From the NCBI GenBank assembly GCA_946480175.1, contig CAMLIK010000002.1:24304-88303 (forward strand): a stretch of 64,000 bases of DNA. Reading direction: 5' to 3'. The notes under the pieces were generated by a model. That model was not told where the DNA came from. It made no database searches and saw only the letters and a list, made by a program, of their open reading frames with translations. The stretch is from an uncultured Gilliamella sp. (GTDB taxonomy: Bacteria > Pseudomonadota > Gammaproteobacteria > Enterobacterales > Orbaceae). Of this stretch, positions 27,387 to 38,621 are shown piece after piece (position 1 is the stretch's first letter; every line of letters begins with the position of its first letter). The translations under genes were made by a program, and so were the position numbers.

Positions 27387-29264
27387 TTAATCTTCATGTC
27401 CTGTATTGGATGATCCATCATCTAATTCTGTTGAGTTAATCCCTTCAAGATAATAATCAAGTATTTTACGTGCAACCGCACCACCGTTGGAACTTCCTCC
27501 ACCACCATTTTCAAGTACAATAGCTAAAGCTATTTTCGGTTTATCATAAGGTGCGTAAGCAATAAACAAAGCATGGTCACGTAGATGTTCTGGTATTCTA
27601 TGCGCGTTATAGGTTTCGTTTACTTTTAAACTATAAACTTGAGCGGTACCTGATTTACCGGCGGCTTGATATTTTGCCCCCGCAAAAACTTTACGAGCTG
27701 TACCTCGCGCACCAAACATTACTCGATGCATGCCTTCTTTTGCTAATGTCCAATAGACCGGATTAACATCGACTAAACTGTTTTTTTCAACATATTTAGA
27801 TGGATCAATCGTTGGTTGGTTTTGGTTGGTATTGATAATGTCGCTCTTTTTATATAATAAAAAATGTGGTGTAAAGGTTTTACCATTATTAATTAGTATC
27901 GTTAATGCTTTAACCATTTGCATCGGTGTTGCAGTCCAATAACCTTGACCAATACCAACCGGAATAGTGTCGCCTAGTAACCAAGATTTTTTATGGCGTT
28001 TCATTTTCCATTCACGACTAGGCATGACTGCTCGCGTTTCTTCACTTGGCGAAATATCAATGCCGGTTCGCTCACCATAGCCAAACTTGGTCATCCATGA
28101 ATTTAAGCGATCTATGCCCATATCATAAGCAACTTGGTAAAAATAGGTGTCGACCGATTCTTCAATCGCTCGTAATACATCTACATGGCCGTGCCCCCAT
28201 TTTAGCCAATCTCGATAACGTCTTTCTGTACCTGGCAGTTGCCACCAACCCGGATCATTAACTACGCTTTTCGGTGAAACAACGCCTTCACTTAATGCTG
28301 CTATCGAAATAAATGGTTTTACCGTTGAAGCAGGCGGGTAGGCACCGAGTAAGGCCCGGTTATAGAGAGGTTTACTTGGATCATTAAGTAATTCGCTATA
28401 TTTTTTACTGGAAATACCATCGACAAAATCGTTTGAATCATAACTTGGGCTTGATACCATTGCTAATATTTCACCATTATTAGGATCAATAGCAACGACT
28501 GATGCTTTACGTCCTGCAAGCAGAGATTCAATATAAAGTTGTAATTTAAGGTTAATAGATAAATAGATATCTTCACCTGCTTGAGGTGGGTGTTGTTCAA
28601 GTAAACGAACAATACGGCCTCGGCTATTTACTTCAACTTTTTCGTTACCCGCAGTACCATGTAATACATCTTCGTAATAACGCTCAATCCCCATTTTACC
28701 AATGTTAAATGTAGCCACGTAATCACTAGCTTTATTTTCTTCTTCTAGTCGTTGTTTATCTTGAGTATTTATTTTAGATATATAACCAAGAATATGGGTA
28801 AGCGACGCGCCATATGGGTAATATCGGTGTTGAATTTTAACAATTGATACAAACGGGAAGCGATGCTGATCAACAATAAAACGAGCGATCTGCTTTTCGG
28901 TCAAATTTTCTTTAAGAGGTACAGGACGATGAGCTCGATAATTACGGCGTTCCTTTTGGAAATTCTCAATATCTTCATCAGTTAAATCAACAATCGTTTT
29001 TAACTGTTCAAACTGTTCGTTAAGGTTTTTGGTTTTATCAGGAACAATATTTAATTGATAGGTAATATTATTTATCGCTAATGGTGTACCATTACGATCA
29101 TAAATCATTCCACGACTAGGCGGAATAGGGATAATTTCAATCCGATTGTTGTTTGATTTGGTACTATAATAACTAAAGTTTGATATTTGTAAATCAGCTA
29201 AATTGGCTATTAATACAAAGATTAATAAAATAATTACCACAAATGCAAACAGCGCTCTACGCAA
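27387..29264 (-). CDS. mrdA: Penicillin-binding protein 2
   Basis: [19 protein letters not shown] (SxxK), [11 protein letters not shown]; adjacent to rodA. Confidence 0.95.
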
Positions 29265-29347
29265 AAATAAGTTTGTTTCTGCCGAGTGATCGCGAATATT
29301 GCCTTTTTTTGTTTCACCTGAAATAGAGATAATCTAGCTCCTCTAAA

Positions 29348-34470: not shown

Positions 34471-36340
34471 AGTTTTTCTTTTTTAAATAAACTAATAACA
34501 TTGAAATTGCCGCTGGCGTAATGCCAGAAATACGTGAAGCTTGGCCAATTGAAACAGGTTTATGCTGTTTTAATTTAGCAACGACTTCATTAGATAACCC
34601 TGATATTTCAGCATAATCAATGTGCTCAGGTATAAGGGTTTCTTCATTTCGTTTTTGTCTTTCAATTTCTTCAATCTGTAATTTTATATAACCATCATAT
34701 TTTACTTGTATCTCAACTTGTTCAGCGGCTTGAGTATCAGTTAAACCTGGTGCAAAAAGCGATAATGATTGTAGTGTTTTGTAGCTCATTTCAGGACGTT
34801 TAAGTAACTCTTCACCATTAGCTTCTTTGGTTAAATTAGCACTTAGTACCGCGTTAACTTCATCGATTGTTTCAATATGAGGGTGAACCCAAATATCACG
34901 AAGGCGGGCTCTTTCTTGTTCAATAGCTTCAAATTTTTCATTAAATCGTTGCCAACGATAATCATCAACCATGCCAAGTTGTCGGCCTATTTCAGTTAAA
35001 CGAATATCGGCATTATCTTCACGTAACATTAAGCGATATTCAGCACGCGAAGTAAACATACGGTAAGGTTCATTTGTGCCTAAAGTACAAAGATCATCAA
35101 CTAGCACCCCTAAATAAGCTTGATCGCGAGTAGGGAACCATTGATCTTGATCATATACAAATCTTGCCGCATTTAAACCTGCTAACATACCTTGAGCAGC
35201 AGCCTCTTCATAGCCGGTAGTGCCATTTATTTGACCCGCTAAAAATAAACCTTTGATCACTTTACTTTCTAAAGTTGGTTTAAGATCACGCGGATCAAAA
35301 TAATCATACTCAATAGCATAACCAGGTCTTACTATATTCGCATTTTCGAGTCCTTTCATGCTACGGACAAAGGCTAATTGCGTATCAAACGGTAAACTGG
35401 TCGAGATCCCATTTGGATAAATCTCATTACTATCTAACCCTTCTGGTTCTAAATAGATCTGATGAGAATTACGATCAGCAAAACGCATTATTTTATCTTC
35501 AATAGACGGACAATATCGAGGGCCAATACCTTCAATCACACCTGTGTACATAGGACTACGATCTAAGCTATTTCGAATGATCTCATGGGTTGTTTCATTA
35601 GTACTGGTTATATAACAAGGGATCTGTCTAGGATGCTGCTTAGCATCGCCTAAAAATGAAAATACTGGTACTGGATTATCACCATATTGAGTGCCTAATT
35701 TCGAAAAGTCTATTGTTCTGGCATCAATACGTGGTGGTGTTCCTGTCTTTAATCGTCCCATTCTAAATGGATATTGATGTAAAGATTTGGACAAACCGAT
35801 CGAAGCGGGATCGCCGGTTCTACCACCACTATAATTATCTAAACCTATATGGATCTTACCATCTAAAAAGGTACCTGTTGTAAGTACTACAGCTTTTGCT
35901 TTAAAAGAGACGCCCATTTGGGTAACAACACCGATGATCTGATCGTTTTCAATGATCAGATCTTCAACTGATTGTTGAAATAACATTAGGTTTTCTTGGT
36001 TTTCAAGTGCTGTTCTTATTACTTTACGATATAAAGATCGATCCGCTTGAGCACGAGTAGCTCTTACAGCTGGACCTTTACTGCTGTTTAAGATCCTAAA
36101 TTGGATCCCTGAAAGATCAATAGCATGAGCCATCAATCCACCCATAGCATCAATTTCTTTGACTAAATGTCCTTTACCTATCCCACCAATAGCAGGATTA
36201 CATGACATTTGTCCTAACGTATTGATATTATGAGTTAAAAGTAATGTTTTTCTGCCGATTCTAGCTGACGCCATTGCTGCTTCAGTTCCAGCATGACCGC
36301 CACCAACAACGATGACATCAAAAAGATCTGGGTAAAACAT
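34448..36340 (-). CDS. mnmG: tRNA uridine-5-carboxymethylaminomethyl modification enzyme MnmG (GidA)
   Basis: [53 protein letters not shown]. Confidence 0.97.
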
Positions 36341-36473
36341 ATAAAGCCTCGTTTTTCATTTTAGATGATCATTATTTTGATCAAGCGATTTAGTTCTATT
36401 TAGCGTAAGGAATTGTACTCATCTTTTTTATTACGTCAAATGATCTATTTTGATCACGATCTAAATAAAATAA

Positions 36474-36715
36474 GATCTTTTATATGATCTTTTTATTTTT
36501 ACTATTATTAGATCGGATCTTTTTTGTTGATAACCATTTTTTGTGATTATTTTATAGGATCTTATCGATCGTCTAATGCTGTTAATTGATCGGATCTTTT
36601 TTTGATTAAACTTGTTTATAACTATCTTATTTATCCACAGTACTCATTTCAATTAAGGTTATTAATGCGATCATAACAGCTTATGATCGTTGTTTATCAC
36701 AGAGTTATCCACAAA
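36474..36715. other. Chromosomal replication origin oriC (core)
   Basis: Adjacent to the 5' end of mnmG as in enterobacteria; 15 GATC sites in 36361-36690; 13-mer-like repeats GATCTTTTATATG (36474), GATCTTTTTATTT (36486), GATCTTTTTTGTT (36516), GATCTTTTTTTGA (36593); DnaA boxes TTATCCACA at 36631-36639 and 36705-36713, one-mismatch box TGTTGATAA at 36525-36533. Confidence 0.88.
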
Positions 36716-36879
36716 AAATAAGTTTGTTTGCCTAAATTTTTATCTTTTATTGTTTATAAATTAAGCATGCTTACTTGAGTTAATTAGAGGATCTTAGTTA
36801 TAAACAATTTATAATAGTAAAAGTTGTATAGATAGAAATATTGTTATGAGTATTAAATAGTTTTACAAAATTCAAAATA

Positions 36880-37652
36880 AGATAGTCGGTCGAACTTGGC
36901 GCCATAAACCAACTTATCCTGTTCTACCGAGTTGGGAGACTGAATTTGTCAGCACTAAGGGAATAATTGAGTGTATAGATTTAGAAGAATAGTATGATTA
37001 TTTTGAATTTGTTTCTCAAAGTGCAACTGAACATAGTATAATAGTATAATTAGTGCTCATACTCATGTTGTACATCATTATTCTAATTTTGAGGATTTAA
37101 AAAAACACGTCTTAGCAAAAGAAATTAATCCTTTTTTAATTAAGGCTAATTTTGTGAATGTTCAAATTGATGGTGTTATTTATCGAGGTTGGATAGATGA
37201 TTGCTCTTTTCAAGCGGGTGAAGAAGTCGCTGTTATAGCGCAGTGGCAAGAAGATCATTATGAACTTTATGCTTTAGCTAAACCTGACGAAAGGATTATT
37301 AGTATATGTCCTAATTGCAGTAAAGGGCGAATAGCTTATTTAATCCATCAAGCTAAATTGACATTATTTATTATCCTTTTTTTATGATTTTTTTAATATT
37401 CTTTATATGTTAGCTTGGGGCAGTGTCTATCAACTACTTCATTTAACAGCTAAATATATCTCTTTTAATGAAACCTATATTTTTTGGTAGTAGTATTTTT
37501 TGTTGTATTTGTATGATTATTGAATCTATACCTAATCTTAATAAAAAAGCAAAAATAGCCGAGAAAATTTTTAAGATTTTAAATCTGCCGAAAATAGCTA
37601 GAATGGATTTAAGACGTTTTACTAATAAAAAGTCGCTAAATTAAAACAAAAA
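36880..37652 (+). pseudogene. Decayed gene, possibly of the putative T6SS effector (ExIF-like) membrane protein family
   Basis: Frame reads KIVGRTWRHKPTYPVLPSWETEFVSTKGIIECIDLEE*(TAG 36990)YDYFEFVSQSATEHSII, then after removing one AGTATAAT copy ...SAHTHVVHHYSNFEDLKKHVLAKEINPFLIKANFVNVQIDGVIYRGWIDDCSFQAGEEVAVIAQWQEDHYELYALAKPDERIISICPNCSKGRIAY; more frame breaks downstream. Family call from recollection of (R/D)ER/T-I-PHCSKGR-type motif. Confidence 0.45.
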
Positions 37653-37937
37653 AAGCAGCATAATTGTATGAAACCTTCTAAAATGTTCTATTCTGGAAAA
37701 AATGAAAATAATTTATTTTATTATTAATGAATAATAATAAGTTAAAGTTTATAACTAAATAGCATTTTAGCTATGTTACTATTTTACTATTCGGTTTTTT
37801 GTAGGTTAACTAGTTTTTATATATCGATTTTTAATAGTTGCTTTTGCTAGCTTGTTTAGTTCTCTATAAAAGTGATTGATTTTTGTGAAAGCAAATTTAT
37901 ACTTAGTACGATTGTATTTTTATTGTGAGGTTATTTT

Positions 37938-38621
37938 ATTACTCTTTCACAGTTGCCCTTACCTTTTATATTACCTAATAACGAAACGTTTGATAGTTTC
38001 TATGTAGGTGATAATCAGCTATTGTTTGATTCTTTGCAAACCTTACTTGATAGGAAAGGTTTTAATGTCTTTTATATATGGTCAGCAAGTGCTGCTGGTC
38101 GTACGCATCTATTACATGCTTCAAGCCAAAATAAATTAGCCAGTTATATTCCTTTAAAACAACATTTTTTATTAGTACCTGAGATTTTACAAGGTTTAGA
38201 TAATTACGATTTGGTTTGTTTAGATGATATTGATGCAATAGCAGGTCATCGTGACTGGGAAGAAGCTATATTTGATCTATTTAATCGTTTAACTGAAAAG
38301 AGCGTTAGTAAATTATTGATAACTGCTAGTGCACCTCCGAAACAAATTCCTTTTATATTACCTGATTTAGCATCTAGATTAACGTGGGGACAAGTTTATC
38401 AGTTAAAAGAGTTAAACGATGAGGATAAGCTAAAAGCTTTACAACTTAGAGCAAAATTAAGTGGATTTGAGTTATCAACAGAAGTTGGTTTATTTTTGTT
38501 AAAACGTGTTAATCGTGATATGCGTACTTTGTTTTCTTTGATGGAAAAGTTTGAAGTTGCAACGTTAGCTCAACAACGTAAATTAACCATTCCTTTTATT
38601 AAACATATTTTGGATTTATGA
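37938..38621 (+). CDS. hda: DnaA regulatory inactivator Hda; proposed ATT start at 37938
   Basis: (I)TLSQLPLPFILPNNETFDSFYVGDN aligns with the Hda N-terminus including the clamp-binding QLxLP motif; AAA+ DLVCLDDIDAIAG; upstream TGA in frame at 37926. Confidence 0.92.
   Translation: MTLSQLPLPFILPNNETFDSFYVGDNQLLFDSLQTLLDRKGFNVFYIWSASAAGRTHLLHASSQNKLASYIPLKQHFLLVPEILQGLDNYDLVCLDDIDAIAGHRDWEEAIFDLFNRLTEKSVSKLLITASAPPKQIPFILPDLASRLTWGQVYQLKELNDEDKLKALQLRAKLSGFELSTEVGLFLLKRVNRDMRTLFSLMEKFEVATLAQQRKLTIPFIKHILDL

Follow-up and report, generated by a model that had tools for sequence, protein, structure and literature searches.

Comparative evidence for an AUU initiation codon of hda in Gilliamella and related Orbaceae

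Introduction

Hda is the protein that switches off the replication initiator DnaA, and in E. coli it is the principal brake on DnaA-ATP. In the window, as the whole 64,000-nucleotide stretch of Gilliamella DNA analysed here is called (contig CAMLIK010000002.1), the gene for this protein raises the question of where its translation begins. The first ATG, GTG or TTG of the hda frame is TTG 37953, which lies within the motif for binding of the beta clamp, and an earlier note on this DNA had proposed an AUU further upstream instead. The answer matters for annotation and for physiology. Open reading frame callers limited to ATG, GTG and TTG would truncate Hda, and probably also PBP2, across the whole genus, and in Hda such a truncated annotation would damage the clamp motif. 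Furthermore, if a start codon that is disfavoured by initiation factor IF3 limits Hda, the control of replication would be connected to the state of the translational apparatus.

Identity of the gene and its start site

The product passes two NCBIfam models, the curated Hda model NF005982 with 294 bits (cut-off 268) and TIGR03420 with 247 bits (cut-off 194.8), and it carries the N-terminal clamp motif QLxLP in the form QLPLP. By model match and clamp motif, the gene is identified as encoding the DnaA inactivator Hda. Relatives of this hda with 88–97% identity bear the name Gilliamella, in agreement with the origin of the window. The N-terminal clamp-binding site of Hda has been described (PMC5742627), and in the window it is whole only with a start upstream of 37953. 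The features of the start site are the following:

37926..37928, plus strand: in-frame stop codon TGA upstream of hda, overlapping the Shine-Dalgarno sequence; TGA in 30 of 32 aligned Gilliamella genes, CGA or GGA in the remaining two
37927..37930, plus strand: Shine-Dalgarno sequence GAGG of hda, 7 nt before ATT; invariant in 32 Gilliamella
37938..37940, plus strand: very probable hda initiation codon ATT (AUU); invariant in 32/32 aligned Gilliamella
37938..38621, plus strand: hda coding sequence as predicted from ATT, 227 amino acids, (M)TLSQLPLPF..., NCBIfam NF005982/TIGR03420
37950..37964, plus strand: beta-clamp-binding motif QLPLP of Hda; its Gln would be lost if translation began at TTG 37953
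37953..37955, plus strand: TTG picked by open reading frame callers for hda, not the start; codon not conserved

When the letters of the window were re-read, the codons after TGA 37926 were GGT TAT TTT ATT ACT CTT TCA CAG TTG, and the coordinates proposed earlier for the stop, the GAGG, the 7-nt spacing and the ATT proved exact to the base. None of the in-frame codons of the window between the upstream stop and QLPLP is ATG, GTG or TTG, which bears out a further statement of the earlier note. Its claim that the protein matches the length of E. coli Hda holds approximately (227 amino acids here versus 233 annotated in E. coli), and in Gilliamella Hda the clamp Gln is preceded by one residue fewer. 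The GAGG 7 nt upstream would place AUU 37938 in the ribosomal P site, where the initiator fMet-tRNA would read it with a mismatch in the third position, and initiation there would yield a 227-residue Hda with the clamp motif intact.

Conservation of the start codon within Gilliamella

Among 35 sampled Gilliamella genomes, hda was found in 34, the one lacking it being only 81% complete. The start codon is ATT in 33 of these 34 (window genome included) and ATC in one; of two divergent genomes, G011 has ATT and G004 has ATC. Codon statistics rest on 32 aligned Gilliamella hda genes, in which neither the ATT nor the GAGG varies at a mean third-position divergence between genomes of 0.31 (31%). Within the same alignment, codon invariance is seen in none of the eight internal columns that are Ile throughout and in only 18 of the 150 columns with an invariant amino acid. 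A codon-invariant ATT amid variable synonymous sites thus indicates conservation exceeding chance. A change from ATT to ATG needs a single base and was never seen in the 32 lineages. Two codons ahead of ATT, variation is non-synonymous (TAT, CAT, TCG, TTT, TAC, TTC, TCT), which fits non-coding sequence at this place.

These comparisons also bear on other ways of reading the locus. Initiation at TTG 37953 would give a 222-residue Hda, and its appeal is that this codon is the earliest ATG, GTG or TTG of the frame. Over the 32 Gilliamella genes, however, position 37953 is TTG in nine, CTA in 14, TTA in eight and CTG in one, so that 23 of 32 have no TTG there; in addition, the sequence upstream is conserved as protein and the Gln of the clamp motif would be lost, which leaves this start highly improbable. 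TTT 37935 was likewise considered as a start and is ruled out by a GAT in its place in G011. Still less likely is that translation begins upstream in another frame and then shifts into that of hda. A GTG at 37925 does overlap the TGA in most Gilliamella genomes and could serve such a purpose, but it is missing at three loci (L009, with TAACGAGG, L013 and L031), no slippery site was seen and the upstream sequence shows no conservation at the protein level; this reading was rejected on comparison of the Gilliamella genomes. A sequencing error concealing a canonical start, which the earlier note had named as a way in which its proposal could fail, is refuted by the 32 further Gilliamella genomes that carry ATT at this position, some of them complete and in a single contig.

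With these alternatives set aside, hda of this Gilliamella very probably begins at AUU 37938, and the earlier proposal is strongly supported by the comparative data from Gilliamella and Orbaceae. The position of the codon, its conservation, its single origin (see below) and the absence of canonical starts are properties of the sequence; from them we infer actual initiation at AUU, which is almost certain and close to the limit of what sequence can establish.

At locus L013 (genome G028), GGA replaces the in-frame stop upstream of hda, and an upstream TTG immediately precedes GGAGG. An N-terminal extension of Hda is possible in that genome only.

The hda start in Orbaceae and other Enterobacterales

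hda was found in 43 of 44 Orbaceae genomes, the sample beyond Gilliamella covering four other genera. In two of these genera (six genomes), ATT stands at an equal distance from the clamp Gln, and in two further ones (three genomes) a CTG is found one codon farther from it on the upstream side, as it is in the E. coli gene. The GAGG is present upstream of hda in nearly all other Orbaceae, and in 41 of the 43 hda genes the 12 codons upstream of the clamp motif are free of ATG, GTG and TTG. The comparison of hda starts across Orbaceae, which had been suggested together with the AUU proposal, thus finds ATT, ATC or CTG and an avoidance of canonical starts. At locus L167 (genome G226), an ATG occurs two codons before the conserved ATT; this is the only Orbaceae genome with an ATG nearby.

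In a tree of Hda, the genes with ATT and ATC form one clade (support 99/97) with CTG outside, which points to one change from CTG to ATT inside Orbaceae; start-codon changes on the tree number three in all, which is the minimum. The hda gene of G035 reads CTG ATC AGT, and the codon after CTG aligns with the ATT elsewhere. From this alignment, the start moved one codon downstream and did not mutate in place. AUU would accordingly have arisen once, in a sub-clade of Orbaceae, by a one-codon downstream shift from CUG.

Beyond Orbaceae, CTG occupies the hda start position in all ten sampled genomes of family f19, which was taken as Enterobacteriaceae as most of its Hda proteins are 74–93% identical to E. 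coli Hda; two of these genomes also have an ATG five codons further upstream, ahead of the Shine-Dalgarno sequence. CTG is also found at this position in f5, f11 and f23, and TTG in f10 and f2, while GTG probably serves as the start in f6 and f13. A frequent ATG is limited to families such as f7 (5/7), f8 (3/3) and f12. Judged from these start positions, a weak hda start is not universal in the order, given TTG, GTG and some ATG families. As a pattern, the earlier idea of a weak start reached by different codons agrees with CTG, ATT and ATC in Orbaceae, CTG in Enterobacteriaceae and TTG in f10, and a poor start on hda looks like a trait kept over long evolution.

A non-canonical hda start is already known in E. 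coli from annotation. RefSeq NP_416991.2 annotates the gene from CTG and the DNA agrees (GAGGTATCT-CTG-AAC), as the earlier note had stated. The E. coli gene shares with that of Gilliamella the GAGG Shine-Dalgarno sequence, an obligatory non-canonical start and a clamp motif a few codons in. It differs in its codon (CUG, not AUU), in its spacing (5 nt versus 7 nt in Gilliamella), in having one codon more before the clamp Gln and in adjoining uraA, not oriC. The part of the literature covered yielded no report that treats the start codon of hda in Gilliamella or the CUG of the E. coli gene. Nor did it yield a description of AUU or AUC as hda starts, of the single origin of these starts, of the avoidance of ATG, GTG and TTG throughout the family or of the mrdA case described below; at such partial coverage, this is weak evidence of novelty.

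Other genes with non-canonical starts

The earlier note had cited infC and pcnB as AUU precedents from E. coli, and both genes begin at ATT in Gilliamella too. A further candidate lies in the window itself:

27387–29333, minus strand: mrdA (PBP2), probable start ATC/ATT after AGGAG at 7 nt spacing

Of 30 Gilliamella genomes, 27 lack an ATG, GTG or TTG ahead of the conserved N-terminus of mrdA and show ATC or ATT instead; two genomes carry an ATG two codons upstream, and in these ACC replaces the ATC. mrdA is probably a second gene of the window with a non-canonical start. A background scan compared about 326 unshadowed open frames, some of them spurious, between the window and stretches of 390 kb from three relatives. 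Among frames resembling real genes, hda, mrdA and prfB were those in which conserved coding sequence extended beyond the first canonical start shared by the genomes, prfB being a known frameshift gene that served as positive control. Several further flagged frames were set aside on inspection alone, as resembling antisense, rRNA or rearranged sequence, and the scan overlooks genes with fewer than five such upstream codons. By sequence comparison, Gilliamella would have at least four genes with non-canonical starts (hda, infC, pcnB and mrdA). The genus may tolerate AUU and AUC starts in general, which would dilute a regulatory reading specific to hda and might explain part of its AUU.

A possible throttle on Hda synthesis

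IF3 is known to repress non-canonical starts and to autoregulate infC through its ATT (PMC5472188). infC resembles hda in its AUU with Shine-Dalgarno sequence and in the conservation of this codon, but it encodes the discriminating factor IF3 itself, whereas control of hda by IF3 is a proposal. The AUU start of pcnB has been reported to be inefficient and to limit translation (Binns and Masters 2002, cited in PMC13009471); pcnB, with an ATT conserved in Gilliamella, differs from hda in belonging to the RNA polyadenylation pathway. In Streptomyces, the GTC start of sigR is repressed by IF3 (PMC5472188). Like hda, sigR encodes a regulator and has a non-canonical start that annotation overlooked, whereas its codon is GTC, its host is an actinobacterium and the IF3 effect was demonstrated there.

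By analogy, a poor AUU discriminated against by IF3 would keep Hda synthesis low, and this would be the likely reason for its retention. IF3 would destabilise initiation complexes on AUU and tie Hda synthesis to the supply of initiation factor, as for infC, so that Hda synthesis would rise when IF3 is short. Such a throttle on Hda through an IF3-sensitive start is plausible and fits the codon pattern. Weakness and IF3 sensitivity of the hda AUU are extrapolated from E. coli and Streptomyces, and a low output of the gene and selection for little Hda are likewise inferred. Selection for reduced Hda output has about an even chance of being correct, and IF3-mediated regulation of hda is tentative and rather unlikely.

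The AUU might also be merely tolerated, having originated by drift, with enough Hda being made through the Shine-Dalgarno sequence and the context and no regulation involved. This explanation competes with the throttle and leaves the AUU start itself untouched, and its chances are a little short of even. It is favoured by mrdA of the same genus, which likewise has ATC or ATT, by the hda AUU having only one origin inside Orbaceae, and by an unremarkable RNA fold around the start (z 0.46). Against it speaks that ATG never arose in 32 lineages in which all internal Ile codons vary, and that relatives with another start codon also avoid ATG, GTG and TTG. A 6-bp stem (UUGUGA/UCACAG) over the Shine-Dalgarno sequence of hda can form in 26 of 32 Gilliamella and is weakened in the other six. 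A special RNA hairpin over this site was considered and discarded, the fold being no better than that of shuffled sequences.

Position of hda next to the probable replication origin

A probable origin of replication lies close to hda:

36341..36860, no strand assigned: probable oriC between mnmG and hda, with two TTATCCACA DnaA boxes (36631 and 36705) and dense GATC

GATC occurs 22 times in 36000–37000 versus once in the next kilobase. hda is located about 1.2 kb from the probable oriC as the first intact-looking gene beside it. In four single-contig genomes hda lies at base 297–946, with mnmG at the other end of the contig in the three looked at, an arrangement that would follow from opening the record at the origin. 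hda is the origin-flanking gene in the Gilliamella genomes examined; in nearly all genomes of the other Orbaceae genera, mnmG and hda remain neighbours with uraA between them.

An early doubling of hda once replication has been initiated could compensate for its weak translation. In its widest form, the throttle would make the non-canonical hda start a conserved regulatory device across Enterobacteriaceae and Orbaceae, with the ratio of IF3 supply to ribosomes determining how much Hda is synthesised and thereby linking the initiation of replication to the capacity for translation; in Gilliamella it would be combined with the location of hda beside oriC and a doubling of its dosage just after initiation. 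This extended proposal is speculative, with chances of roughly three to one against it.

Between oriC and hda, the region 36855–37640 contains broken open frames (for example 37154–37387, 77 amino acids) that have the look of a decayed gene.
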